Notes under the pieces: generated by a model | The model's input: the letters and a program-made list of their open reading frames with translations, nothing else | Told to the model about the DNA's origin: nothing | Database searches by the model: none | Translations under genes and position numbers: made by a program | Shown here: piece after piece, positions 37,049 to 56,244 of the stretch | Numbering within the stretch: the stretch's first letter is position 1 | Layout of the letters: each line of letters begins with the position of its first letter | Origin: Trichosporon coremiiforme | Taxonomy: Eukaryota > Basidiomycota > Tremellomycetes > Trichosporonales > Trichosporonaceae | Length of the DNA stretch: 64,000 bases | Assembly (NCBI GenBank): GCA_039545355.1 | Contig: BCJJ01000003.1 | Location: 1,178,001-1,242,000 of the forward strand | Direction: 5' to 3'

Positions 37049-39217
37049 GAGCTGTAGTCAGAAGTGTTTAGCGCAGAAGGTCTTTGCATATCTAACGATT
37101 CTTTCCATTTCTTGTCATAGTTGTTCATGTTCCTAGGTCACAATGTAAACATTCATCAACACAAAGCGTCCCTTGACGCGCTCACTTCGCCTTGTCAACA
37201 ACAGCAGCAGATTCTCATCAATCAACTCTATCGACCAGTCACGCTTAATAACTCCCCGGCGTGCCTCTAAGTCGATCAGTCGGGCAACTCAACTCTACAT
37301 CAGATAAGGGAAGACTTCGCGCTCGATCACCAGCTTCTGTCGCAGCACACTATCGATCAATGAGGTCACTGACGATTGTGCCGTTGATAGCCGCATTCTT
37401 GGACCCGATCACCTCCCGAACAGGCCGTGGGCCGGACTGAACCTGTGCAACTAGACCAAGAGCTACCAGCGACCGGAACTCGCCCGCCAGCTTTCCAAGT
37501 GGGATCTCGGCGATGAGCCCGCCGCTGCTGAGACCGGGATCGTCCGGGATCTTTGGTCCGTTTCAAGTGTGAGCCTTGCACGGCTACCAGCGCATCACAT
37601 AGAACATCACTTGCGCTACGCTAATATACCCTCTGCAAGACACCGGGTTCGGGAAGTCCGACACGTGCAGCGCGCACTCCGGTAGGGGACGCTTCCCTGC
37701 AGACAACCTGACGACGCTGACGTACATTCCATGAGCCATGAGCACGGCCACGAGACGCGATACACGTCCGAGAACGGCCTAAACGGCGTGAATTCACCGT
37801 GCGCCCTGCCCCGCACCGTCCCCTCACTGGTCCTCCCAGGAGAACATGCCGCACCTCCGCGCACTCCGCCTTCACGGTGTATGGACCTGCGCGTGGATCT
37901 CTGGGCATACATACCATACTCGTTACGGGCAGTGGGTCGCGGACCTTCGCGTCTCCTGAACTCAGTTGCAGACTTGCGTACAGCGGCGGAGTCAGTATCG
38001 GACCGCAGGAAGTACACCTGCAAGCCTCCCTGACTTACCCAACAACAGCAAACACTAGCTGATCACGGGGACAGGGTCAGCATGCTTACTGGTCACTTCT
38101 TGCCGAATCGGCCATGAGCCATTCAGCTGTCGCTTAGCCCTGCCACGTCTGCTTGTCGTGGTCTTGGCTTGCCCACTGACAGAGACCGGGCGGCTATTCG
38201 ATCGGACAATGCAATCACTGCCGGAGCCGCCTCCACGTCGAGTTCGAGCCATGTAATAAAGCACGCAAGGAGTGCCGCCCACGCCCAGTGTCAGGGCAGA
38301 AGTGACGAGTTAGTGTACGGTCTATGCGCGTCAGCGGTAGTCTGAGCTCTGCGCCAGCTACGCAAGCGGCGTGCAACTTGCCTACCCAAACGCTTCCCAA
38401 ACGGCACTGGCAGCAGCAACGGAAGCCGGGACCGACACGCCTACATTCATTGCAGCGCAGTATGGCGCTGATGCCGTTGATGCACGGGATACGCGGTGCT
38501 AGATGGCTTCTGAAAGCAGGTGAGTTCATGAAGCTCAATTGCTCATGAGCTGCCTCTTTCGTACGGTTTGGAGACTTGGTCCAGGCAGCGCAGTGGTGCA
38601 GCGGCAAACGGCCCGCGACCCAGTGGGACCTGAAAGAAGTAACCCCCCTGGGGCCCATTTGCTTCCCAGCACTGCAGGTGCAGCCTGCCTGCGGGCCTGA
38701 GGATGAAATGGTGAATAGCTCTCGTTAGTGCTTGGTCACCAGTGCAGACTCTGCTAGCGGCCGGTGGGACGGGGTGGATGCGCCGTGGGCCCTGGAGTTG
38801 GTGCAGTAAGCCGCATATCCCGGCTGGGCCGGCAGCGGCAGGCGGCACAGGCAGGTGCAGGTGCAGGTGCGGCAGGGCTAGGGTTGCTGAGCCCAGGTGA
38901 GCACCATATGGAGCCCCCAGTCCCCGGATCCCCTGGTCCCCCGGTCATGCGCGCTCTCCATCGCCGGGTATCGCGGGTATGGCATCCATGCATGCCCTCG
39001 ATGCCCGAGAAGGGCTAACGTCGGGTCTCGGGATGGGACATGGGTACGCAAGGGACATATATATCGCAGGCGTTGTTGACAGTCACCCTCGCCCAATCTT
39101 CACCCGTTACCACACACTCACTCGCTCTGTGCTTCGTGCTCCTGCCCTGCAACGAGCTGCCCACGACTTGCCCGACCACACGACTACACGACCACACGAC
39201 TAGTACCCATTGCAACC
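37049..39217. other. intergenic region between VPS27 and the Sec14-like gene
   Basis: 2.2 kb. No ORF with coding character. A short GCAGGT repeat (GGCAGGTGCAGGTGCAGGTG) occurs at about 38850-38870 within a Cys/Pro-coding-like GC-rich patch (38750-38960). The right end holds a TATA element and leader of the next gene. Confidence 0.35.
39058..39064 (+). promoter_or_regulatory. TATA box of the Sec14-like gene
   Basis: TATATAT within GGGACATATATATCGCAGG lies 154 bp upstream of the ATG at 39218, with a C-rich, ACAC-rich leader between them. This is the best-placed TATA element in the window; the call rests on sequence and position only. Confidence 0.5.
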
Positions 39218-40485
39218 ATGCCCATGTCCGCCACGCTCGAGAAGCTCCTCACGCCCCCCGCGCTGCCCGTCAAGGGCTCGCAGCTGTCGGAGGAGGACAA
39301 GGCCGCCATCGCCCAGGTTGCCGCCCACTTCAACGCCGAGGACTACACCGCCCCCGACGGAGAGGACAAGTCCACTCGCTCCCCCCTCATCCTCCGCGAG
39401 TACATGTTCTTCGTGAGTAAACGAGCCGCTGCGAGGCGGCGGCGGCAATCAGCAAAGAAGCAATTGGCGCGGCGATCTGACGCCGGCGCGATGGTTTCGT
39501 CGCCCGCGCCGGTGCCTGGACGTTGGGCCACACAGTCCGGCGCAGCTCGGTGAATTGTGGATCAGAAGCTGACGGCGACCACAGACCCAGGGCCGCATCA
39601 ACGGATACTACCAGGTGCACGGCACTGTCGAGAAGACGATCGAGGCGATCGAGAAGACCATCGCCTGGCGCCGTGACCGCAACATGTACGATATTGACGC
39701 CTTCGCCAAGGAGGTCGAGGACGAGGTGAGCACATAAAGGCACGGAGTAGCGGGCCCCGGACGCTTCGGAAGATCTGGGCTATGGACGGGCTGCGCGCTG
39801 CGGTGGCGGTTGCCATAACGTCCGGAGGCCCCCCGCTGCGGCCTTTGTGCCTACTCAGTATATGCGGTAGTGCTAATGGGAACAGTGCCGCAACGGCTTC
39901 GCGCACTTCACCGGCTTCGACCCCGAGGGCCGCCCGATCATCTACTTCTTCCCGAACAAGGACATCACTCCTGGTGCTGAGCGCCGCCCGCTCCCGAACG
40001 CGTTCATGATGGACCGCGCTGCCGACTTCTGCGTCGGCGACGTTGGCCAGGTCGTGATCATCCAGAACTTCGGCGGCAAGCGTCAGGGTGACCTGCCCTC
40101 AATCGGCGCCGCGACGGAGCAGCTGTCCAACCTCGAGAACCACGCCCCGGAGGTGCTCTACAAGCTGCACTTCCAGCAGATNGGCTGGATGCTGCGCGGC
40201 TTCTTCGCCCTCCTCAACCCCGTCATGCCTGCGCGCACCGCCGCCAAGATCATCAAGCAGGACACGCCCCAGAGCATCAAGGACGGATACTTCTCGGGCG
40301 ACGAGCTCATCAAGGAAATCGGCGGAAACGTCGACTGGTCCTACAAGCACGACGAGTACTTCTGGCCCATGGTCGAGGCGTCGAAGAAGATCCGCGCCGA
40401 CCAGGAGAAGCGCTTCGAGGCCCTCGGCAAGCCTGCCACGGGTGTCGACGAGCGCCTCTTCCGCGTTGCCCCCGGCGCCGCTTAA
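39218..40485 (+). CDS. CRAL-TRIO / Sec14-type lipid transfer protein
   Basis: Exons 39218-39412, 39585-39725 and 39886-40485 give 311 aa. The N-terminal CRAL-TRIO-N helices end with EAIEKTIAWRRDRN. The lipid-binding domain begins GFDPEGRPIIYFFPNKD and includes VVIIQNFGGKRQ, a hydrophobic gate helix segment GWMLRGFFALLNPVMPARTA, and KIIKQDTPQSIKDGYFSGD. It ends with an Ala/Lys-rich helix and VAPGAA. Sec14-type proteins exchange phosphatidylinositol or other lipids between membranes. Which of the yeast Sec14 homologues this corresponds to cannot be decided here. Introns (172 and 160 nt) are long for this window. One N (40182) is at a third codon position (Ile or Met). Confidence 0.85.
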
Positions 40486-40754
40486 AAGGGTTAGGTGTGC
40501 AGTGCTAGTCTTAGAGATATTATATACCCATCTTGATGTACTTTGCTTATCTGGAACAGCGCTGCAGGTGTCGTTGCAGGTGTGGCTGATTCGTGGTATC
40601 CGACAGGTTCGTGTCGCTCAGTCAGGCTTTGAGACATTGCAATCGTACGGCTCCGGGTAACTGTTCATAAGTAGCCCGAATCCTCCAGCTCCGGCTCTTG
40701 TGTTTGCGTTTTCCGATGAATAATGCATAATACACGATGAGAAGGGTGAGATGT

Positions 40755-41791
40755 TTAGAACGGGAGCGACGATCTCGAGTTGGCCTTGGCCTCGGCGACC
40801 TCCTGTGATTGTCAGCGACAGTTCTGTATCCTCTCGACAACTCGACGGTTGTCTCCGCGTCTCCGGACGTCTAGCCTGCACGCTCGCGTACCCCGTTGCT
40901 CCCCGCGGTAAACCTCCGAGAGGCAACCCACATCCCGACAGAATAGCGGAGCCGGCCGGCATCCGATGACGCAGAGAACAACCCACCACCCCGATGATAC
41001 TCACCGCCTTCCACTCGGCGATCCTGGCGTCCATAGTCTCGAGACGGCCGTCGACCTCGGCCTTGCGCGCCTCGCGTTCCCGCTCGCGCTTGTGGCCCTT
41101 GAAGAGTAGGCGACGGTTCGCGTAGATTGACTTGGACTCCTTGGGCTTGTACTCGCCAACCCAGTTGATGATCGTTCCGCTCGGCCACTGCACGGGCACG
41201 GGATCGACGGGGTTGATAGGCGATGGCGGGAGGAGGTGAGCGGGGTACAGCTGCAGCAGCTGCTTCTGCCGGCGACGCGGGATCCACGCCGGGCACCAGG
41301 TGCCATTCGGCCTGTCATGTCAGCTTTTACGACCAATGGATAGCTTCGAGCCGGTGTGCAGGTCCTTCCCGCAAGGCGAGAGTCATACGAGCATATTTCC
41401 CGAGTGTTGGGGGGCGACATCTCGAGTGGGACGCCTACGGTACCACTGCACGAAACCGAGGAAGACAACACCCTCGTGACGAGCTGCAACTGTTGGTCCG
41501 AGGCAGGACCGGCTCCAGAGCAACTCCAACGTTGTCTTTCCAGCGTCCTTGCAGAATCCGTGCACTTGCGACCCAAAACCCCGCACCGCAGCCATCGACT
41601 ACTCACTTCGAGGGGAGGAAGGGGTTCGGGAGGTCAATCGACTTGGCGTCCTCGCGGCCGGCAATGCTGCGCTGGATCAGACGGACCAGTACTGGCGGGA
41701 GAACGTCGGGGGTGACGTGCGTCGAGGTCTGAGCGATCTGGTTGGCGGCGCGCGCCGTCGTCGAGAACACGCGTCGAGAGAGGCCGAACAT
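40755..41791 (-). CDS. MRPL25: mitochondrial large ribosomal subunit protein mL59 (MrpL25)
   Basis: Exons 41791-41607, 41311-41005 and 40802-40755 give 179 aa. An amphipathic basic N-terminus (MFGLSRRVFSTTARAANQI) is a mitochondrial presequence. It is followed by NPFLPSKPNGTWCPAWIPRR, typical of the fungal mL59 family, then SIYANRRLLFKGHKRERERE, a Lys/Arg/Glu helix and a short C-terminus ending SSLPF. It is a structural protein of the fungal mitoribosome. Introns are long here (295 and 202 nt). It lies head-to-head with ATP2 across 1.1 kb, and converges on the Sec14-like gene. Confidence 0.85.
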
Positions 41792-42911
41792 GGTGGGAGT
41801 GTCGGTGGTTGTGACGAGTCCAATCTCGACTTTTCGTCGCTGCCTCGACGTCGCTGGGCAGGACCGACTTTTGCTGCTCGAAACCCACAGAGGCACGGTC
41901 CAGATAGGCCTGTCAGTCGGGTGCCTGGATAGGTGCGCCCCCCATATTTTGCGTTAGTGGGGGTTACAATCACGTGACTGAAGGACCTGTCGCGCAACAC
42001 GTTTGGAACTAGCCCGGCGCTAGCCATCGTTAGCACGCCCGAGATTCTGCTCGCACCCAGCTGCGCAGCACATGTGGCACGGACTTGGCAGTTGATGGCG
42101 AGCAGAAGAGCAAGAAGGCTGGTAAACAATCAAAATGTTGTCGTAAGCCGCCGGTGCACATTTGGGCGTGACAGTGGGCGTTGGATGGTTTCTTTGGTGG
42201 CTGATGAAATATTCCAGCGTCGAATTCAGTACACCTGGCTATCTCTAGTAGCTGGCTCGGCTACATGACGTACAAGAGGTACGGCTCGGCGCATCAGCCG
42301 CGATTTCACGCAATGCAAACAACCGATGGGCATCAGCCTTAGTGTGCGAAAGTGCGGTGTGGATGCAGACCATGCGCTGCGGAACAATAGAGGGGTTGTA
42401 TGCATCGGTGTTCATCGAGTGACAGTGGATGACAGGTGGGGTGGACGCCGAACGAAAGTCAAGCGCGTGGGGGTCAGATCGCTTGTTGTGTTCGGCTTAA
42501 ACTGAAGTGCGAGGGCACGCATCGCTGGCAGGCGCACCTGACGTGCTCCTAACGAGGATGGTAGTGGTTCCTCTGGTTNCTTGCTTCGGACGAAATGGTC
42601 GAAAGCAGTCGCTGGCCAGGGTGCGGGACCAATTGCTGGGCGATCGATTTCTCCTACGCTGCCTGGGTGGCCCCTAATCAGCTGTCTCCAGTGACACTCC
42701 CACCCAATCGCACCTCTGGACCAGGCCAGTTCGGAGTTATGACGAGTAAAAACCCGGCCGGTCCAAGTGGCACCACGGAAAGGCGAGCCGTCTCGCCGGA
42801 AGCACCCGCTATGCCCGCGTCTCTCACCCCCCCTCGCCTACACTCTTTTCCTCCCAACTCCATCTCCTCCTCCCTCCTCTCCTCCTCACTCACCTCTCAA
42901 AACTCGGCAAG
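41792..42911. promoter_or_regulatory. divergent region between mL59 and ATP2
   Basis: 1.1 kb between two divergent nuclear genes for mitochondrial proteins. The last 80 bases before ATP2 (about 42832-42900) are almost pure C/T (CTCCATCTCCTCCTCC and similar), the pyrimidine-rich leader common in highly expressed fungal genes. It holds the only N outside coding sequence (42579). No ORF or TATA box is convincing. Confidence 0.45.
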
Positions 42912-45169
42912 ATGACCCTCGTCACTCGTTCTGCCATCCGCGTCGCCCGCCGCGGCGCCAAGAACGCTCGCGCCAACGCCGCCCTCTTCACCACCGCTGC
43001 CAAGGCCGCTTCCGCCCTCCCCCAGCCCCGCGTTCAGGCTGCTGCCCCCAAGGTCGCCCAGCAGGGTAAGTAGTTGTTGTGCACTTCGGTCCTTCGCACA
43101 CGTCCTCTTCTACCTCAAGCCGATCGCCTCGAACAATCATGGATGGAAGCAGAGTTGTTTGGATGCTGTGCGAAGGGAGCGCAGACGTTTGCGATTGAAA
43201 AAAGGGCGGTCGGAGAGTTATTGGGGCGGAGCAGCCAGGGACATGAGAAGGGACGTGGAGGACCGAAAGAAAAGTCACAAACGTGTTAGACGTCGATCAA
43301 CATTCAACTAACTTTACTTCAGCCGGTGCCGTCCGCTCGTACGCCACCCCCTCTGCCGTCCAGACCGGTCACATCAAGACCGTCATTGGTGCCGTCGTCG
43401 ACGTCCAGTTCGACACTGAGGAGCTCCCCGCTATCCTGAACGCTCTCGATGTCCAGTTCGCTGAGGGCCAGCCCAAGCCNGAGGGTGGCCGTCTCGTNCT
43501 CGAGGTCTCGCAGCACCTCGGNGAGAACACCGTCCGTTGCATTGCCATGGACGGTACTGAGGGTCTTGTNCGTGGCCAGAAGGTCGTCGACACTGGTGCN
43601 CCCATCTCCATCCCNGTCGGTAACGCCACTCTNGGCCGTATCATCAACGTTATCGGTCAGCCCATTGACCAGCGTGGTGAGATCAAGGGCCCCATCCGCC
43701 CNATCCACGCCGACCCCCCCGCGTTCGTCGACCAGTCCACCAAGGCNGAGGTCCTCGAGACCGGTATCAAGGTCGTCGACCTCCTCGCCCCCTACGCCCG
43801 TGGTGGTAAGATTGGTCTCTTCGGTGGTGCCGGTGTCGGCAAGACCGTCTTCATTCAGGAGCTCATCAACAACATCGCCAAGGCNCACGGTGGTTACTCC
43901 GTCTTCACTGGTGTCGGTGAGCGTACCCGTGAGGGTAACGACCTGTACCACGAGATGATCGAGTCTGGTGTCATCAACCTNGACGGTGACTCCAAGGTCG
44001 CTCTCGTCTTCGGTCAGATGAACGAGCCCCCTGGAGCCCGTGCCCGTGTCGCCCTTACCGGTCTCACCATCGCCGAGTACTTCCGTGACGAGGAGGGCCA
44101 GGACGTGCTTCTCTTCATCGACAACATTTTCCGTTTCACCCAGGCCGGTTCCGAGGTCTCTGCGCTTCTCGGTCGTATCCCCTCCGCTGTCGGATACCAG
44201 CCCACTCTNGCCACCGACATGGGTGGTATGCAGGAGCGTATNACCACCACCAAGAAGGGTTCCATTACCTCCGTCCAGGCCGTCTACGTCCCCGCCGATG
44301 ACCTGACTGACCCCGCCCCCGCCACCACCTTCGCGCACCTNGACGCCACCACCGTCCTGTCCCGTGGTATTGCCGAGCTCGGTATCTACCCCGCCGTCGA
44401 CCCCCTCGACTCCAAGTCCCGTATGCTCGACCCCCGTGTCGTCGGTGAGCGCCACTACGTGAGTATCTTTGCCGTGCCTACATCACCCGAAGTGGACCCT
44501 GAGTGATATGGGTGGGGTGGTGACACGTGGAAATCCGATCACGTGAACCATTGTTTGTGGCTCCATCGTTAGACACCTACCACTCCGGCCTCTTTGACTG
44601 CTTTTCGCTTGTTACGGCGGTTTCCTACTTCGTTTGGACAGAACTGACAACCAGAACGTCGCCTCGCAGACCCAGCAGGTCCTCCAGCAGTGCGTAGAAA
44701 TTTGAGCCCTGCCTCCACTGTGGCACAGTCAGCCACATGTGGCTCCGACCCTCCTCGACCTCCGCTGACCTCTACAGGTACAAGTCGCTCCAGGACATCA
44801 TCGCCATTCTTGGTATGGACGAGCTTTCCGAGCAGGACAAGCTTGTAAGTCGAAGTTTACACGCTTTTGAAGCGTGCTGACGTGTAGATTGTCGAGCGTG
44901 CCCGTAAGATCCAGCGTTTCATGTCTCAGTAAGTTTTCACCTCATCCACCTCTTCTGCAGTCGCTAACTGACCCCCAAGGCCGTTCGCTGTGGCCGAGAT
45001 CTTCACCGGTATGAAGGGCCAGCTCGTCCCGCTTAAGGACACCATCTCTGGCTTCGAGGAGATCCTCCAGGGCAAGCACGACGACATCCCCGAGGCCGCC
45101 TTTTACATGGTTGGAGACATTAACACCGTGAAGGAGAAGGCCGAGAGCATGGCCAAGGAGTCCGCTTAA
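42912..45169 (+). CDS. ATP2: mitochondrial F1 ATP synthase beta subunit
   Basis: Six exons, 42912-43065, 43323-44458, 44655-44689, 44778-44844, 44888-44928 and 44980-45169, give 540 aa. Exon 1 encodes the mitochondrial presequence ([18 protein letters not shown]). The mature protein starts near [20 protein letters not shown]. Walker A is [12 protein letters not shown] (about residue 218), Walker B is [13 protein letters not shown], and [10 protein letters not shown] and [16 protein letters not shown] are family hallmarks. It forms the catalytic sites of F1 for ATP synthesis. The codons are strongly biased to C-ending, as in highly expressed genes, and introns are long (257, 196, 88, 43, 51 nt). 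Fourteen N bases lie in exon 2, all at third codon positions; one is Ile/Met-ambiguous, the rest are synonymous. Confidence 0.98.
43480..44341. other. ATP2: cluster of 14 ambiguous bases in ATP2 exon 2
   Basis: N occurs at 43480, 43498, 43522, 43570, 43600, 43615, 43633, 43702, 43747, 43885, 43981, 44209, 44242 and 44341. Counting from the exon 2 phase, every one is a third codon position. The introns of the same gene have none. This is not the pattern of random base-call failure; it fits silent differences between merged copies. Confidence 0.8.
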
Positions 45170-46074
45170 GCGACTTCAAGCTCTTGACGTAGTAAAGGTC
45201 GAAAAAGATGCAAGTCGAATGCTGAAATCCGAGGTTGGACATGGTGCTCGCAAAACAATCTCGCTGCCACAACCGCCACTTGCGATTTGATTCTGCTGCT
45301 GGGCCCCGCACTCTTATCTGACTGACCACAAGGCTGACCCCACGCTGCCCCTACATCTGTGCCCGCTGGCCGCTTCACATCCTCCCTCAGGTACACACAG
45401 ACTTCTGGCGCACGATCCTCACCAAACAGACCGGCATGCACGGAAGACGTGCAATCTGTCAGCTACCAGTCCGATAGTCCTAGTCCGCGGACATCGCGTC
45501 GGTCTCAAGTCCACGGCGATGTTCCTTCCGATCGCCCATCGTCACCCACGCCCCCTTCCGCTCCGCTCACTTTAGCAGTCTAATGACTCCAAGGCTTTGT
45601 CAGCAGGTATGGCTGCTTGCGCCGGTGAGATATGTGCTTTGTCCAACGAAAGAGATCATCATGAACACGTTGGGGCAGCGTCCTGTGCCCCAGTCGGAGA
45701 ACGGAAGGGAAGGTGTCTGCAGACGCGACGCTGGAGGGGGCTGTGAGCCTGAGCTTCACCTTCTCATTGCGATCAATGATGCTGCAAGTCGTCCCCACTG
45801 CTATGCTGCATATAGACGGAACAACCAGCCCCGAGATTGCTCGCGCGCTCGCTCCGTCAGTCTCTCCGCGGATCCCACCCTCTGGGCCCTGCGCCCACTA
45901 AGGGGCGCGCGCGTCATCGGCATCGGCCTACATCCCAGAAGCGCAGGACCTCACAGGCCTCAGAAGTGTGAATGTGAGGGCGCAGTCGTCCCTGACACTA
46001 GCCTCTCAGCGGCTCGAGGAGCATAGCGCAAGCCAGCACGGTAGCACGCAGCTGACGCAGGCAGTTGAGCTACA
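45170..46074. other. intergenic, 3' of ATP2
   Basis: 0.9 kb with no ORF of coding character. The left end is the ATP2 3' UTR; the right end leads into the promoter of the GIY-YIG locus. Confidence 0.35.
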
Positions 46075-46200
46075 TATAACGCGCCAGTGACTCGCTTCCT
46101 TCTCTTCCCATCTCACTTCCCCCTCCCAACACACTTCGCGCCTTCCTTTTCTACAACACGCTTCCTGACTTCCTCCTTCTGACTTCATACACTTACCTCA
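46075..46200 (+). promoter_or_regulatory. TATA box and CT-rich leader of the GIY-YIG locus
   Basis: TATAA at 46075-46079 (TACATATAACGCG) is followed by a pyrimidine-rich tract to about 46190 (TTCCTTCTCTTCCCATCTC). A GTGAGT at about 46301 (ATCAGTGAGTGTC) could be a 5' leader intron donor. Together they look like an intact fungal promoter in front of the decayed nuclease gene. Confidence 0.4.
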
Positions 46201-47850
46201 CCTCAAAACCAACCATACCTCATAACCAGCGACTCAACTTCACTCTGCATAGTTCATACCCGACCCTGCAACGTCCACAGACCACCCGGGTGATCATCAG
46301 TGAGTGTCTTCCTTCCCTGTGCGACAACCTGACGAGCAAATACCGCAACGGGCTTCACCATTTTGCGCTCATCGCTTGCAGCCTCCTGCCTGGAGTTCAA
46401 GAGCTAGTCAGGTAAATTAATTGCTCCATACGCATTGCCGATGATCTGTCGGTTGCTGGCTGCCCTGCGCAAGTATGCCTAGGAGTCGTTCACTGCTCGC
46501 CACCCCAATCTCAAGGACTACGACATCATTTCTGAGGCTCCCCCTTAAAAGCAGCGCCAATGTCTCCGCTCTCGTCACCTCCAATGTCCTCGCGAGGATC
46601 ATGAACGCCAGGGAGACCATCGCTCTCCTTAACTTTCTCGCGTTTCTCTGGTCCTTTCTGCTTGGCAATATGAGCGCTAACATGACCTTGGCTGAGGCAA
46701 TCTTCCGCGGCTCTTATCTGGTGCGCACCAGACACACAATAGCTCCTCGGTACTCCGAGGCTGACAGCTTGTAGGAGTTGTCAAGCTTCTCTCGTCCGTC
46801 GTTCGCCAGCCCTTCCCCTCCATCGAGCGCGTCATGTCTCTGCTGCAACCCACTCGGTACCTCGGCATTGGGCGTGTACCTCAAGCTGGCAATTCCCAGG
46901 CCTGGCTCGGGTCTGCCCCTCTTGGTGTATGTGGGCTCGGCAACGGGAGTGCTTGGCTTTATTGGGCGCTTCATGTCGCACCTTTCGGCGATGATTCGTG
47001 GCAAGTAAGTTTGGCGATCGGCCATACCTTGCCTCGCGCTGACATTCAGATCTGACGGCTTCTACACGGAGTGGCACAAGCATCGCGACCAGTACAAGAT
47101 TGTCTACTTCGAGCTCTAGTGCCTCCCCAACTTCGCCCACCGCAACGCGTCCACCTGGCTCCGGGTGCGGGCTTCCCTTCTCGCACTGCTCGCCGAGTCG
47201 GTCGTCATGTTGCTCTTTGGAGTGCACTCTGTCCTGCACCAAGGTTCCGATGCTGTCGCTTTCTCCTTCTCCAATTCACGTGCATCAGCCTCTACGACCC
47301 GCTCTTTCGTTGTGCCGGCGAACCGCTCCGACCCACTCAAGACGCCGCCGACCAAGAGGCAGTGCGGGCGAGGCGACCAAGGACAAGGCAATCTTCGCCT
47401 GAAGCCTGTGTGGAAAGGTGTTCAGGACCGCCCAGGCCCACGCTCGTCACCTCGATGCCCCTTCTTGTGCTGCAGCTGCCCCCAGCCCCACCTGTGCTCG
47501 CAATGTGACAAGGGCATCGATGTCTCAGACGGCTGTGAGTGCGATCTTACCTGCAAGGGCTGCGACTTCCGGTCCGCCACTCTCACCAACTTTCGCGACC
47601 ACCTCCGACGCCGCGCCCACGATGCAGTCTGCCCATTGACTGAGGGCTTGCTGGTCAAGAAGGCCATCAAGGGAGAGTCGCAGCCATGTCCGTTCTGCGG
47701 ACAAGTGTTTAGTGGCGACCACTACGTGCGCAACCACAACCAGAATATCGCTGCTTCTCGCGCATGGGCGATTCCACCGGAACCGAGTCTACCCCAAGAG
47801 TTGCGCTACTTGAAATTGACCTCACACATAAGGTGACAACCCCCGGCCAG

Positions 47851-48020
47851 GACCGTTGGGCGCGTCGTGTGCATCATCACGACTCGGACTACCTCGTGAA
47901 GCGCGGCCACTGCAAATTCTACAAGAAGCGCCTGAAGGTTAATCGTCCTCGCTCCGGTCCCTCCGTCATTCCCGCGAAGTATACTTGCACGGGTTGTGGC
48001 GAGGTGTTCACAGAGAAGAA
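47851..48020 (+). repeat. Cys-module repeat, copy 1
   Basis: Encodes RRVHHHDSDYLVKRGHCKFY and, after a short linker, YTCTGCGEVFTEK. It is preceded by GTGACAACCCCCGGCCAG, which resembles an intron end. It matches copy 2 at 48335-48503 in both DNA (TGGGCGCGTCG, ACGACTCGG, ACGGGTTG) and protein. Between TGGGCGCGTCG and ACGACTCGG it has five more bases than copy 2. Confidence 0.6.
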
Positions 48021-48334
48021 TAGCGACATTCGGCGCAGGAGCTTCTACGTGCACTGAGTTTAGAACTGCGAGGGCGCGCCCAAGAAGAACGTCAAGGCGC
48101 TGACCAAGACGGCCGTTGTGAGTTGCGACCAGCCAGGTTGTGAGTACATCGAGGCGTCTGACGGTCGTTCGATCATCGTTCGCGTGCAAGCTCTTATCGA
48201 CCACATCGACATCGTCCACTTCGATCTGGTGTTCCTAGGGTTCACCTTCAAGCTTTGAAGTGCCTGTTCTGCCCCAAGCTCTGTGATGGTGGGTGCCTGA
48301 TACCGACCTTTCACGCAGAAGCTGACACCTCCAG

Positions 48335-48503
48335 GTCCCGGCCGCTGGGCGCGTCGAAATCCACGACTCGGCCTACCTCGCCGAGCACGGCACTTGTCAA
48401 GTCTTCAAGGTGCGCATCCAGGTGAAGCGTTCCCACTCTGGCCGCGCTAATTTTCTGGCGACCTACACCTACACGGGTTGCGGCGAGGTCTTCGCCGACA
48501 AGT
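48335..48503 (+). repeat. Cys-module repeat, copy 2
   Basis: Encodes RVEIHDSAYLAEHGTCQVFK and then YTYTGCGEVFADK, aligned with copy 1: HDSxYL, a GxC, an R-x-x-V-x-R stretch, SG, YTxTGCGEVF and an acidic-Lys pair. It is preceded by CTGACACCTCCAG, a good 3' splice site. Its length differs by 5 nt from copy 1 near the start, so at most one copy can keep the ancestral frame through this junction. Confidence 0.6.
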
Positions 48504-48636
48504 CCTCCGTAGCTAATACCATAGGTATGCATTTACGCATCGTTCAAACACTGTCCAGTTTCAAGACTACAGGGCATGAGGGTCTTTAGAGCTCGAATTT
48601 GGGCATATCGGGAAGGGGCTTGGCACCGGGAGCATC

Positions 48637-49662
48637 TCAAGGTGCCAGGCAGACCTTGCCAGAGGTGGCGGAGGGCGCGGGGGCGGTGATAGTCTCCTTT
48701 ACTGTCTCAGTGACCTTCTCTGTCACCTTTTCAGTGACAGTGGAGACGCTGCTGGCCTTGCACTCAGTGGAGGCCGAGGTGGGGGGCGGGGCGGCGGAAG
48801 AGATGGGAGGAGGCGCCTCCGAAGTAGGAGGAGGAGCCTGGAAGGAAGTGGGAGGCGTTGCCTGGGAAGAAGCAGGGGGAGGCGCCTGGGAAGAGGTGGG
48901 GGGAGGCTTCTCAGTCAACGAGGGAGGAGGCTCCTCAGTGGACGAAGGGATGGGAACGGGGTCGGGCTTGCCAGAGGTACCGCACTGCTGGTCCTTGTTG
49001 GTGAGACCCTTCTCGAACACCTGGTCGGCGAAGTAGTCGAGACCGCCACCGTCGTTAAGCTCAGAGTACCAGCCACCAGACGCAAGGACGGCGCTGCCGA
49101 GCTCGCCGATGTCCTTGCCTTTGTCGGTCTGTTTAGGACGACGCCAGTGGACACGGATACCGAGGTCCTTGGCGTCGCGCAAGGCCTTGGCGGCCTTGAG
49201 GCCGACCTCTCCGGGGGCCCGGCGTCCATCGCCGTCCGTGTTGTCCCATCCGTCCGAGACGGAGACGATGGCGGTACGGTTGCGGAAGTCCTCCTGGATC
49301 GTGTCCTTGATGTGCTTGGTTGCGGCGTTAACAAGGTCGACTGTCGGGCGAGCGTTATAGTCGTACAGCAGGGTTGCCACTCGAGGGCGTTGACAGTGTT
49401 CATGGCCGCGAAAACAGAGGGAACCTGGAACTCGGTGCAGATGAAGGCACCCTTGTCCTCGTCGGGCGTCATCTTGGCGAACACCTTGCGTGCGACTTCG
49501 TGGCGCAGGTTCTTCTTGTCGGCAGAAGTGGGCGAGTACGAGTTGTCGAGTACGACAACGGCGATACGCTGAGGCAGGCCGTTGTCGCCGCGGCTCTTGA
49601 TCGTGTAGGCGCTCGGCTGACACGACGGCCACGAGGGCGGCGAAGACGGTGAAGAACTTCAT
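48637..49662 (-). CDS. secreted vWA-domain protein, frame disrupted twice
   Basis: The ATG at 49662 starts a signal peptide, MKFFTVFAALVAVVSA. The next segment is coding in another frame: SAYTIKSRGDNGLPQ, RIAVVVLDNSYSPTSADKKN (MIDAS-type DxSxS), then KVFAKMTPDEDKGAFIC and NTVNALEW. After about 49370 the first frame resumes with ATLLYDYNARPTVDLVNAA, TAIVSVSDGWDNTDGDG, LGIRVHWRRPKQTDKGKD and GGLDYFADQVFEKG. The C-terminus is a Pro/Ser-rich stalk with PPPTSxxA repeats and a Thr/Val/Glu-rich TEKVTEKVTETVKET run. Frame breaks lie near 49612-49620 and 49370-49376. They compensate, so one frame stays open for the whole length but has lost the MIDAS. No function beyond a probable cell-surface or secreted adhesion-like role is inferred. 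Confidence 0.6.
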   Translation of the reverse strand: MKFFTVFAALVAVVSAERLHDQEPRRQRPASAYRRCRTRQLVLAHFCRQEEPAPRSRTQGVRQDDARRGQGCLHLHRVPGSLCFRGHEHCQRPRVATLLYDYNARPTVDLVNAATKHIKDTIQEDFRNRTAIVSVSDGWDNTDGDGRRAPGEVGLKAAKALRDAKDLGIRVHWRRPKQTDKGKDIGELGSAVLASGGWYSELNDGGGLDYFADQVFEKGLTNKDQQCGTSGKPDPVPIPSSTEEPPPSLTEKPPPTSSQAPPPASSQATPPTSFQAPPPTSEAPPPISSAAPPPTSASTECKASSVSTVTEKVTEKVTETVKETITAPAPSATSGKVCLAP

Positions 49663-50482
49663 GTCGAGGCGAGGTGGATGGGCACGAAGTAGGTAGGGTT
49701 GGTGCTCGCATTTTACCTGCCGGCGTCGCAAAAAGGTAATAACTGCCATCCACTGCTAGCGGTGCGAATCCGCCTCGCTTTACCAAGTGCCACAACCCCC
49801 CACCTCGGTCAGTTGCGACACTCGTTCTGCTCAGGGTCGCGATAAAGAATGCCGAGCCGTCTGACGCGGCACGCCTCAGTCACTCGAGCTTGATACAGAC
49901 GTTCCGCCCAGGACAGCGTCGCGATGACCCAGGGAAGCCGATAGAGTGTCCCGGCGCGTTCCAAAGAAACCAGTGGAAGGTGCTGATCATCATCGACACC
50001 CTTAACCCGAAGCACGGCTTTTACGGGTCAGCCCAGCTTTCGGTGTCGGATATATATCAATGACAACCTTCGATGAAACCGTATTAGTCAGGTCTGCTCG
50101 TGCTCGTTGCTGGCACACTCTCGCCGATTCCCAACGGGTTCACCACGAGGCGGTGCTCATCGGGTACTGCGTAGACGACCGGGGCTCTTGGTCAGGTACG
50201 GAGTTGGGTGAGGTTCCTTGACATCTCAAGTTGTGCTCTATCTGGTGGCAGAGATCGTTAACGATAGATATGCCTGATCTTGACACCTGTTAGATACATT
50301 GTACATTGTGGGCATCCGCCGCCCACGTCCGACTTGGCGACGATGTGAAGCCACTAGCGCGTGTCAATCTTGCGTTGCTCTTCGGTGTCATCGCCGAGCA
50401 GTCCGGCCCTCACTAGAGCAGGTCCAGACCAACAGGGTATCTCCAATGACGATGATGCATGACTATGTGTACACAATGTTTC
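49663..50482. other. intergenic, promoter side of the vWA gene
   Basis: 0.8 kb between the vWA start and the UBR1 stop, both on the minus strand. It contains a TATATAT at 50051-50057, about 390 bp upstream of the vWA start. No ORF of coding character was found. Confidence 0.35.
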
Positions 50483-53400
50483 TCAGAGACAGGACCACCC
50501 GCCTCCGTCGTTTGTGAGCTCGAGCTTGCGCGCGGCAAAGGTCGGCACGCCGTGCTGCAGCCACACGTTGCGGCGCAGCTCCTCCATCCTTCCAAGGTGC
50601 ATGTACTGTCGGTGACCGCGTCTGATGTCAGCTTGTGGTTCTAGTTGCTAATTCACCTAAGGCTCGTCTCCAGCTCGCCGAATTGGTCCAGGTACGGCAT
50701 GGGACCAAAGGATCCTGAGCCCGCGAAGAGGTACACGATGACCCAGCGCTTGATGTCTGCAAACATGCCGACGACACCGCCGCATCTGAGGTTAGCTATG
50801 TGGGAAACTCTAGACTGTACTCACTCTCGCATGTGCAGGTTGCACTCGCCCTGTTCTCCCTCGCTGCAGCAGTCGCCAGCGAGGCACACCATCTTACCGC
50901 AGAAGAGGCAGATGGCCGGGTAGCTCGGCCGGAGACCGCAGTGGTCGCACCGGCGGCGCGCGTAGCGAATAGCAGCGACCTCGTAAGCCTGCGGCAGACG
51001 CATCAGCTCGTAGGTTCCCGGGTACTCGAGCGAGGGCAGGATCCGGCCCTGCATGGCCCACTGGGTCAGCCAGCGGGCGACGATGGGCGTCTCCGTGCTC
51101 TGCGGATTGGCGAGCGTCTCGCGCGGGCGTGGGATGCCCATGAGCGACAGTAGGCGGTTGTATTCGCTACCTTGGGTCACGATGTAGTCCGGGTTCGTCA
51201 CGGGGTACGACCCGTTGACGGCGTAATACACGATGGCGGCACGGCGCAGGAACGGCAGCGTGAAGCTGTATAGGATCTTGGCGAGCATGTCGTCCGTGAC
51301 GAGGTTCAGCACACCGTCGATATCGATGAACGGACCCGCGTTCCGGAGCACGCTGACCATGAGCGGCCGGAAGTCGGAGAAGACGCTGAGGGCGTCCTCG
51401 AGCGACGTGTCGGTCGGCGGCTGCGTGCGGCGCTGCGGCTGGGCACGTCCAGCGAGCGATCGCCGGATGTACACCGACAGGCCGAGCATAGTCCTAGTAA
51501 GCTCGGCATAGTAGGACATGACGATGACGGCATGCAGGAGGTCGGGTGCAATCGCAGCAGCCTCGATAACCATGCCGAGCGGCAGGCGGAACAGCAGCGG
51601 TGACGGCAGCGTCGCACTGCGGTACCAGTCGGGAAGGAAGCGGGCGAACAGCCCCACGCGCAGCGGAGTGCGGTCCATCTTCGTGCCAAAGAAGAGGTCG
51701 AGCTCGAGCTGCAACGTGCCGATCAGGTGCTTGATGAGCTTGAGTCCAGTCTCCGGTACTTGCTCAGCAACCGTAGCTCCTGGTGTTCCGATGCCACGGT
51801 GCGTGATCTCCGCGACGCTGACCGTGTACCCGACCATGTCGTCGGCGAGATACATGTGTGTCTTTTTGCCGCGAATACGCTGGCTCTGCTCGCTAAGGGG
51901 CCGGGTCAAGCTGCGGATTCGGTCGACCATGCGGTGCACGTTTTTGTGCGACTTGCGGTACGCGCTGTCGTACGCGTGAGACGTAAAGTTGCAGTCGGTG
52001 AACCACGGGACAAGCTCGCCGGTCTCGACGTGGAACTCCCAGATCTTGGCCGAGTCCGAGACACGCAGCAGGCCCTCCTCGGACACGGAGCGGATACGCT
52101 CGCTCAGTGTTGGCAGCAGGCCGGGCGCGACCTTGGATTTGGGTGTCGGTCGGAGTGGCGTCGCTGTCGGGTCGAGCGGGATCAGCACGTTGCCGATGCT
52201 TCGGCACAGCGGACACATGTACTCGTGTCGCATGGCGTTCTCGGGCTGGTGGCGCTGGACCGACGTCGCCTGGCGGTTGCGTGTGAGCTCGTTATAGCTG
52301 TTGATGCAGCTGTCGTGCATCAGGTGGTTGCACGCCGAGACGTAGACACCGAAGCGCAGGTTCGTAGACGGGTACGCGTCCGTGCTGAGGGGCTCGCCTG
52401 AGGTGCCCATCCCGTAACGGAGGTACCTCGTGTCGCGGTCCAGGTCCGAGGGCGCGAGCAGCACCTCCTCGAACCAGTCACGGTCGGTGACGGCATCGCG
52501 GATGATGCGGCTCGGCTGGAGGAACGCGAGCATGCCGCCGGTCCGCCCTGGGTGGACGGGCTCCTGGCAGACGATGCAGCTCCCGTAGCTGACGGGCTTC
52601 TCCTCCTCTTCCTCCTCAATGTCCTCGTCCTCGTCAAGGAAGCTCGCGGCAAAGCTCGCCTGCTGCTGCGCGAAGCGCGCCTTGAGCGCCTTCTGACGCG
52701 CCTGTGCCTGCGCCTTGGCGTCCGAGTGCGGCTTCTTGTTCGCGGCCTCGCGGGCCGCAGCAGCACGCGCATCGCGCTGTGTCCGGTAGTCGACCGTGTA
52801 GCTCTCGGGGAGGTGGGTCACAATCTCCTCGAGGATGTAGTCAACCTTGGAGCGGAAGGGTTCGAACGGAGCGTTAGTCTGCATGAACCACAAGTTCTGG
52901 AAGAGGCTCATGTTGCCGCCGTTCTCGATAAAGTCCAGAGAGCGGAATGCGAAGCCCTCCGGGTCGGCCGCGAGCGCCATCATAGCGAGGTGCAGACCGA
53001 GGTTGAGGAGTGCGTCCATGCTCGGCATCGCGTTTCCGCTCGACGAGCCGTCGGCGTTGACGAGGCCTGGCCAGTCGTTCGGCTGCGCAAGGAGCATGCA
53101 GTGTGCGACGGTCCAGTGCACCAACTGCGATGCAACAGGCTGGGCGAGGAAGTCTGCCAGACCCGAGAACGGCAGCGGCTTCTCCGGAATGTGGATCGGC
53201 TGCGGCTTGATGACGGGATTCGCGATCTCCGGGTGGTCCTTCTTCGCCCGCTGCAGAAGAACCTCGGCCGCATCGCGCTGCTCATTCCGGCTGTACTGGC
53301 GCCAGTACGGGTCGACCTCGCCGTAAAGCTCAGGCTTGAGGGCGTACGAGCCCGTCGCCGTGTCGGTGGGTGGGCGGAAGTCGGCAACTTGCTCGAGGAT

Positions 53401-56244
53401 CGGAACGAGCGAGCCGCGCTCGTGGCTGCGTTCCGGCAACTTGCGCACGATCTCAGAGTACGACATCGGCCCAAGGGCCAGAATGTGGATGATGTGCTTC
53501 CTAGTCACAACCTCGGGCTTCCAGCCGTTCACGGTGCTCGTGTCCGAGACGAGGTACACGAGTAAGAGCAGGAACTCCTCGAACATGGCGATCGTCTCGC
53601 GCGGGTCGTACGGCGACGCGGCCCATACCTCCGGCGACATGACGTCGAGGCTGAAGAACGAGCCGAGGTCGTACCGATGAATGAGGGCGGTCACGAACTG
53701 CGCCGGATCCATGATCGATAAGCCAAACTGGAGGAGGAAGAACTCCTGGTCGATCGTGAATTCTCTGAGCCCGAGATCTCGGTAGTGGTGGTACTGGTGG
53801 CGCATGGCAGCACCGTTCTTAGCCCACATACCTAACCGGATCTGCGAGAGAATGACGTGCTCTGGGACGAGTTAGCGATCTGCGGACACACGTAACTTAC
53901 TCTGCAGCGGCCACTCGATCATGAGCAGCTTTGCCTCGTTCAGCTCCTTTGGCGTCTCGGCGCGAATGATGCTCTTGTCGACGACATCGACGAAGTTTCC
54001 ACTGGCTGGGTCGGCCTTGAAGCAGACGGCCGAGAAGCTCTTGAGCATCTCGGCGAGGACGAGGTGCATGTAGTGGTGGAAGGAGAAGCCGGTGATGTGG
54101 CTGATGTCGAGCTGGTACAGATCAAAGCTGGCTCCTGGGGTGAGGATCCCGGTGACAGTCTTGAACTGGGGCTCGGGGTAGAGGGTCGCGTCCAGCGTCT
54201 CGGTGGTGAGCGAGAGGTCGTCGACGATGCGCTTCGAGACATTGTGCAGAGCGTCGAGGAGCTCATACGCCTGGGCGGTGCGGAAGGACTCACCAAACTC
54301 GCGCGCGAGCTTGGTCAGATCCGGCAACACGCTGATGCTCTTAACCCAGTCGATTTCGTACTCGACGTGCTTGTCGAGCTCCTTGCGCTGAGACTGGAGA
54401 CCGACAAAGTGGTTCAGGAAGTCGAGCGTGCGCTGGAACAGTTCCGGATCATGTACGAGCTGAGCCTTGACCTCCTTGTACTTTAACAGCGCGCGGAGGT
54501 GGCTGAGCAGCGTCAATCCCTTCTTGCCACGGAACGCGGGCGAGTCAATGTCGAACCGGTCGCGGAGGGGCTTGGCGGCTTCATCGCCGGATGGCGGGCG
54601 CGAAGCGTAGTAGTTGTACGCCGTGTCCAACACCGAGGAGAACAGCTTGCTCTCAACGATGGCCTCGCCGCACGCCGAGTTCCGCCCGAGGAGCATGTAG
54701 CTCATGCTGAAGGCCAAACTGGAGTCATCCCGCTCTTGATACAGGTAGTGCTCGAAAGTGTGGCCGTAGTTAATAGAATAACGTGTTGCGAACTCGCGCT
54801 TGATGTCCCAGCCGAGCACGAAGATGCCCGAGTAGATCTCGCGGAGCTGCCACTTGGCTCGCTTCCAGAGACGCACGTCGAGGCGCATGAGCCAGTCGAA
54901 GCGCCGCGCCTCACCGGTGCCGACGCCGCGCTCGAGCTGCGCCAGATCCGGCGCCAAGGGCGTGCCCTCCCACACTGTCGACTGAGACCGCGGCTCGAAA
55001 AGTGCCATGGCGACATACCGCCGGAAAAGATCCTCCTCGCCGCAGATCGTCACCTTACACATGTCGCTGAGCCACTGGAGACAAAGGCCCACGACCTCCT
55101 CCTTGTACACGTCGGCCGCACTACGGAGCGTGACGCCGATATCGATCTGCTGGAGCATGGACGCCGTGTGGAACGCGAGCGCATCGAGTCTCGTCACGAT
55201 TAACACCTTGCGGCCCTGCGTGTCAGTTAGATTGCGGGATGACGTTAACTCACAACCTCGTCCGTCTCCTTCGCATACCGTTCCGCCTCCTCCCACGTAC
55301 ACCCGAGAGCGTCGCGGAACTGTCTCGTGACTTCTCTCAGAACGTGCTTATCGTCCGCCCAGGCGGTGACGGCCCACGGTCCTCTTCCTCGGCGTTCTAT
55401 CGGCTCGCCGCTGGGTCCGTTACCCTTCCACATGTCTGCTCTTGATGCGGGGAGCTTGCCAAAGTCGTTCGGCAGCGGCGAATGCTGCAGCACACGAATG
55501 ATGAACTCGAGCACTGTCACGATCGTCTCGTACAGCGCCGTGCCGAGAGCCGGCGGCACGTCTGGGGACGGTTTCGGCGGCTCCTCCCCCGGCGCCAGCG
55601 GCGGGTGGTGGCTGCACCCGAGGTGCCCGTTGTCGCGCCATGCTGACGGGTCGCCGCAGTCGCACACCGCCGCAAACGTGTACGATAAGCCGAAGAGCAC
55701 CTCGTGTCCCTCGTGGTTGCCTGCGTGGAAACAGTCGACACACAGGACACACGAGCTGTCGTTCGCGCATGTTCTGTCGTCAGCCTCCGTCTGTCCACGC
55801 CTGCCATTCCGCCGATCGCAGCAATATGATTACTACTCACTTGCAGATGTACGTCCGGTCGTAGCGCTGCAGAACCTTGCCGCAGACCGCGCCCGGCTTG
55901 GGCTGCTTGGTCGACTTGCCCGCCTTCCTCGCCTTGTCCTCGAGCGCCTGCTGGGCTGCGTAGAGGCTCCAGGTCTTCTCCGGGCCGAAACCGTCACCCT
56001 GTGCCGGACCTTGCGTCGGCTCGAGCCATTCGTACAGGTTGTCCCAGCTCGGCACGCTGGTCGCGGAGGAGCTCGAAGCCTCATCGGAGGAGGGAAGGAA
56101 GCATTCGCGCCACTCGGGGCGTTCGAGGACACAACTGTACAGCTGTCGTGTGATGGCGGCGCGCTGCAGCGGCGTCAGCTCGGGGTTCTCGATGTGCCGG
56201 TGCCCCAGCAGGAGCAGGTCGGAGAGCTGATTCTGCTGCGCCAT
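50483..56244 (-). CDS. UBR1: E3 ubiquitin ligase UBR1 (N-recognin)
   Basis: Exons 56244-55841, 55773-55254, 55215-53901, 53861-50825, 50785-50657 and 50621-50483 give 1,847 aa, close to yeast Ubr1. The UBR box (about residues 118-200) reads CGKVLQRYDRTYICKTC, SSCVLCVDCFHAGNHEGHE and AVCDCGDPSAW; it binds type-1 N-degrons. A RING-H2 (about 1173-1310) begins CIVCQEPVHPG, has CNHLMHDSCINSY and ends MCPLCRSIGN. The C-terminal autoinhibitory UBLC region has CDHCGLRPSYPAICLFC, GECNLHMRECGGVVGMFADI and IVYLFAGSGSFGPMPYLDQF. It polyubiquitinates N-end-rule substrates with a Rad6-type E2. Introns are 67, 38, 39, 39 and 35 nt, and phases close exactly. It shares a 287-bp divergent promoter with TRS33. 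Confidence 0.96.

Follow-up and report, generated by a model that had tools for sequence, protein, structure and literature searches.

A decayed Trichosporon coremiiforme gene joining a GIY-YIG nuclease domain to a zinc-finger-like array belongs to a fast-changing, multi-copy family

GIY-YIG nuclease domains are coupled to other parts in several described systems, with which we compare here a broken gene of the Trichosporon coremiiforme genome (assembly GCA_039545355.1; 42.04 Mb, 134 contigs). The stretch analysed, hereafter the window, comprises 64,000 nucleotides of contig BCJJ01000003.1 (C3:1178001-1242000), and the gene, which joins a GIY-YIG domain to an array of zinc-finger-like modules, occupies its plus strand at least from 46619 to about 48540. 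Slx1, which is eukaryotic, resembles it in having a GIY-YIG domain followed by a Cys/His zinc-binding part, and the COG1833/DUF123 proteins, archaeal and bacterial according to Table 1 of a 2006 GIY-YIG survey, resemble it in their C-terminal Cys/His-rich part (PMC1564403) but have no tandem array. No C2H2 array appears among the domain partners given in the parts of the survey's Figure 1 legend and Table 1 that were covered. Slx1 has one C-terminal RING, whereas the Trichosporon family is multi-copy and diverged and carries several tandem C2H2-like modules in place of the single RING-type finger; Slx1 was rejected on this ground, and no RING family was among the Pfam matches of the six window frames, of proteins P0002-P0007 (from a set of 14 related proteins found and numbered P0001-P0014 for this analysis) or of a further scan that included a C3 stretch. 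I-TevI-type homing endonucleases differ in that the Trichosporon genes are nuclear and eukaryotic and contain a spliceosomal-type intron and a multi-finger array, and in that the loop between the two Tyr motifs is longer in the latter, with 17 residues in P0003 against 11 in I-TevI. Penelope-like elements also place GIY-YIG within eukaryotic nuclear DNA but couple it to an N-terminal reverse transcriptase, which the Trichosporon gene does not show; no reverse transcriptase family was matched in the six window frames scanned up to an expectation value (E) of 1, and this candidate was rejected. Engineered zinc-finger nucleases likewise couple a nuclease, FokI, to a C2H2 array, although they are artificial, use a different nuclease fold and have the opposite domain order. 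The GIY-YIG superfamily itself is old. For its fungal finger-array family, no description of a GIY-YIG and C2H2 array fusion was found in the listed titles and opening abstract lines of the literature, of which subscription journals were little covered; among the matches listed, the GIY-YIG literature for Trichosporon was by title all mitochondrial, papers linking GIY-YIG with C2H2 and zinc-finger nucleases were by title reviews of editing, and the term was not found in the available parts of the main text of PMC7026411 or PMC12820176.

On balance, we consider it probable that this locus represents a pseudogene from a multi-copy family of the Trichosporon lineage and that the intact proteins of the family act as natural counterparts of zinc-finger nucleases. 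Such proteins would be nuclear, with a GIY-YIG nuclease domain at the N-terminus and C2H2-like zinc fingers arrayed towards the C-terminus; the array would bind DNA, or a nucleic-acid structure, and bring the nuclease there, and the nuclease domain would cut where the fingers bind. The joining of nuclease and Cys-rich, zinc-finger-like modules in one gene, proposed in a preliminary description made from the window sequence, was seen in P0003, P0005 and P0006.

The nuclease part was confirmed as described there. GVYLK (46871), YVGSATG, the downstream GR and the Glu-bearing LLALLAESVVML all lie in one frame on the plus strand, and frame 2 reads GVYLKLAIPRPGSGLPLLVYVGSATGVLGFIGRFMSHLSAMIRG, a 45-nucleotide intron, SDGFYTEWHKHRDQYKIVYFEL, the stop TAG 47117 and the helix LLALLAESVVMLLF. 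Residues were compared in ten rows (leaving aside P0001, P0004, P0005, P0007, P0008, P0010-P0014, the first C36 domain and the C84 copy). The Tyr residues of the GIY/YIG box were conserved in all ten members (first) and in nine of ten (second), the Arg of the following helix in 9/10 and the Glu of the later helix in eight of the nine members with letters there, with the Arg and Glu positions assigned by the I-TevI layout. Structure comparison of predicted models using VIA-align recovered the alpha/beta fold of the GIY-YIG domain and ranked GIY-YIG enzymes first for two models, from members sharing about one third of their residues; the homing endonuclease I-TevI was the closest structural match to a model. 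The modelled nuclease domain is thus shown to have a predicted GIY-YIG fold with conserved nuclease residues. A family without nuclease activity, either a binding-only structural variant of the fold or an accident of fold recognition, is quite improbable, as the two models agree and the conserved residues occupy the places (Y, Y, R, H and E) where they are expected.

The intron, also proposed before and in matching phase within the nuclease fold, corresponded exactly to a 15-residue gap in the alignments of P0002, P0003, P0004 and P0005, indicating that these are without it. P0002 comes from a contig of 72,255 bases, which suggests that DNA rather than a transcript was its source. P0012 and P0013, as well as P0010 and P0011 of another branch, end right at the intron donor. 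At the aligned position, the C7 paralogue carries an intron (GTGAGT) that measures 35 or 38 nucleotides. By these alignments, the 45-nucleotide intron is real.

The Cys-rich modules of the preliminary description are likewise present, although they number seven to eight instead of six, part-modules included, and are spread over three frames. The described tandem repeat was found as two modules 489 nucleotides apart with 76% DNA identity over 46 nucleotides and the signature HDSxYL...YTxTGCGEVF in both; the order is module A, VSCDQ module, LKC half module and module B, with a 489-nucleotide period. T. asahii, the nearest named relative, has the same modules in a different arrangement (A1Q1_05088 matches the array with E 2.9e-85), and the array appears to change by tandem duplication. 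Between modules A and B, synonymous divergence (dS) was about 1.0 and nonsynonymous divergence (dN) about 0.47, a rough count over 67 codons of a broken gene; therefore, selection acted on these modules for some time after the duplication. At the level of the family, modules of the strict pattern C-x2-4-C-x12-H-x3-5-H occur in tandem: five on the same strand within 1.6 kb downstream of the C3:267 kb copy and three downstream of the C7 minus copy (six and four with a final Cys allowed), and 0 of 1000 shuffles reached either strict count. The window copy has one strict pattern, reached in 5 of 1000 shuffles, and its other modules are variant. The background was 0 in 71,726 strand-bases of seven other genome stretches, and the whole 64-kb window has two, one of them the gene's own. 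PF00096 was matched above cut-off in P0005 and one C3 stretch. Moreover, the HDSxYL module is confined to the branch of the window copy, while other branches have more canonical C2H2 fingers.

Several results weigh against a nuclease with a finger array. All structure-comparison Z scores were below 8, the best Foldseek GIY-YIG match for P0003 had E 0.11, and no GIY-YIG entry was among the 50 Foldseek matches listed for P0006. The preliminary description would have been refuted by the lack of a GIY-YIG match for the nuclease segment, which came about by half: profile hidden Markov models gave no such match and structure comparison did. PF01541 remained unmatched at every threshold used, in this genome and in all relatives, and a sequence search of the PDB gave no match. 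The PF01541 profile may be too distant for this family; P0013 gave a sub-threshold match to DUF123, presumably the same as COG1833 (E 0.1, 13.5 bits versus 25 required). For the fingers, the array regions of the models have low predicted local distance difference test (pLDDT) values and give no support to zinc folds, and no strict C2H2 pattern was found downstream of the C1 or C7 plus copy. In addition, P0003 and P0005 terminate in apparently shifted frames, and no relative with a complete array was found for this reason.

As already proposed, the window copy is decayed. It has stops at 46772, 47117, 48055 and 48061, the last three within stretches that are open in relatives, and frame changes in the N-terminal part, at finger 1, between 47761 and 47845 and after 48228. 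TGA 47400 occupies the position of the first Cys of finger 1 in relatives. Introns could account for some of these shifts in frame. P0007 is 93% identical to the window copy over 143 residues, the out-of-frame stretch included; the decay is therefore common to another sequence. The locus is a pseudogene and makes no nuclease-finger protein.

The gene family suspected from this one locus was found as seven further copies at five places in the genome, each with a best E of 2.6e-6 or lower, most of which carry stops or frame changes. Three proteins are 80-83% identical to the nuclease part (E 1e-51 to 1.7e-53), and nuclease domains of copies within one genome are 30-45% identical. A DNA search for a second copy of the window gene matched only itself, as did its 238-residue frame. 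Matches on C29 (E 0.13), C51 (E 0.38), C18 (E 1), C1:120 kb, C2 and C3:402 kb were not counted as copies. The family is small, fast-changing, multi-copy and of the Trichosporon lineage. The C7 minus copy is open in two exons and ends TG|GTAAGT, which resembles a splice donor, with fingers beginning 44 nucleotides further; by its sequence, this copy could be a multi-exon gene that is still intact. This copy and the local inverted pair at C7 would suit a lineage-specific cellular enzyme of DNA repair, recombination or genome defence, locally duplicated, sometimes lost and not self-propagating, as would the roles of this kind held by GIY-YIG enzymes such as Slx1 (PMC1564403). Nevertheless, such an enzyme appears unlikely, since a conserved repair enzyme would not be expected to show such low identity among copies of the same genome or such frequent decay. 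From the many diverged and decayed copies, we infer that the family is selfish or otherwise turning over, and not a housekeeping enzyme of repair.

T. coremiiforme is a hybrid with a 42.35-Mb genome, which the size found here fits, against 40.3 Mb for T. ovoides (PMC7026411), and Trichosporon hybrids are also treated in PMC6642101. Duplication of the genome shows in window 49784-53606, which aligns to C1:5101-9000 with 86% identity, and in C3:270.8-275.0 kb, which aligns to C7 with 85%. Homeology to C1 begins sharply at window 49784, adjoining the gene; the window gene and the C1 copy both lie to the left of this border, and their nuclease domains are 44% identical. For this pair the comparison covers one flank only, as C1 starts at a contig end. 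Pieces of a Tc1/mariner-like transposase (HTH_Tnp_Tc3_2, DDE_3) lie at C1:3143-4328, between the C1 copy and the homeology border. C3:263.6-270.8 kb (263555-270841) and C7:1380.7-1387.2 kb (1380658-1387192) are one interval in two subgenomes, whose flanks match on both sides at 75-86% and whose interiors are unalike save for a 0.1-kb stretch. GIY-YIG finger genes occur in both versions, with 37% domain identity, and C7 holds two copies, tail-to-tail. An idiomorph reading, with the C3:267 kb and C7 copies as an inverted allele pair, lost its orientation argument because the second, decayed copy was found on the C7 plus strand; the shared interval remains. Downstream of the C3 copy (C3:265.5-265.9 kb) is a short tandem array, GEVERWRG in one frame, that is found again at many positions of the genome.

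The C3 and C7 interval would also fit a homing-type selfish nuclear gene, in which the fingers choose a chromosomal site, GIY-YIG cuts, repair copies the gene and copies decay. The further copies, at least seven in a single genome, diverged and mostly broken, and the I-TevI model match point the same way. However, neither a host intron or intein nor any interrupted gene was found at the window, 45800-49000 showed no terminal inverted repeats or target-site duplication around the gene (a decayed copy may have lost its ends), and no Pfam family corresponding to NUMOD, a trait of orthodox homing endonucleases, was matched in the six window frames or P0002-P0007. For the left flank, window 38000-46300, in which an ATP synthase beta gene lies at 43247-44503, the genome contains no second copy and hence offers no empty site for comparison. 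Homing is possible but doubtful. The mobile-element origin suggested earlier was not borne out, as no ends and, by Pfam, no transposase or reverse transcriptase domain were found in the gene's frames.

Features of the broken gene (window positions) and further copies of the family (contig positions)
Feature	Position	Strand	Basis or remark
N-terminal region, first piece	46619..46771	+	P0013 from residue 4, same alignment as nuclease, 48% over 132; then TAG 46772
N-terminal region, second piece, other frame	46780..46863	+	75% identity to P0004 residues 1-28
GIY-YIG domain exon 1 (GVY, YVG, GR..H)	46871..47004	+	Alignment of relatives
GT..AG intron, 45 nucleotides	47005..47049	+	Exactly missing in P0002-P0005; homologous intron in C7 copy
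GIY-YIG domain exon 2, Glu helix AESVVMLLF, in-frame TAG 47117	47050..47242	+	Alignment of relatives
Nuclease-finger linker (…NRSDPLKTPPTK…), frame change towards its end	47243..47402	+	Alignment of P0003, P0005, P0002
Finger 1 (SLCGKVFRTAQAHARHLDAPSC), nuclease in different frame	47403..47468	+	P0002 residues 158-211, third frame; PF00096 above cut-off in P0005
Finger 2 region: CSQC…CECDLT and CKGC…H…H; C2H2 spacing 47552-47620	47495..47620	+	Alignment of relatives; strict C2H2 pattern
Finger 3 (PCPFCGQVFSGDHYVRNHNQN)	47684..47746	+	P0001 and P0005 matches
Tandem module copy A (HDSDYL…YTCTGCGEVF), then TGA 48055, TAG 48061	47822..48054	+	Repeat; alignment of relatives
Module VSCDQPGCEYIEASDGRS…HIDIVHF	48112..48228	+	82% identity over 39 to P0001 residues 63-101
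Half module LKCLFCPKLCDG, different frame	48243..48290	+	P0001 residues 278-293
Tandem module copy B (HDSAYL…YTYTGCGEVF)	48311..48508	+	Repeat; alignment of relatives
Family copy	C3:267.1-267.7 kb	-	
Family copy	C7:1383.7-1384.4 kb	-	
Family copy, decayed	C7:1381.3-1381.8 kb	+	
Family copy	C1:2.35-2.75 kb	-	
Two tandem GIY-YIG-like domains by contig end, second open over 224 residues	C36:116.5-117.9 kb (116474-117910)	+	
Family copy	C84:2.07-2.24 kb	-	

Beside the pseudogene, a long minus-strand frame of the window (48640-49755) has a tail rich in Pro/Thr and matched no Pfam family. No tRNA genes were found in the window.

If intact members cut at DNA bound by their fingers, as we infer, they would be natural zinc-finger nucleases whose array is altered by tandem duplication. 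They would offer a ready supply of nuclease-finger pairs, and they would constitute a nuclear GIY-YIG family wholly missed by current profile libraries. Only tentatively, we speculate that Trichosporon-lineage nuclei hold such nucleases, with a GIY-YIG cutter guided by a fast-changing C2H2 array, as selfish or rival elements, differing versions of which share homeologous intervals (C3 versus C7 and, less surely, the window versus C1). Their decay and divergence within a recent hybrid would provide a test case for the selfishness of such genes.
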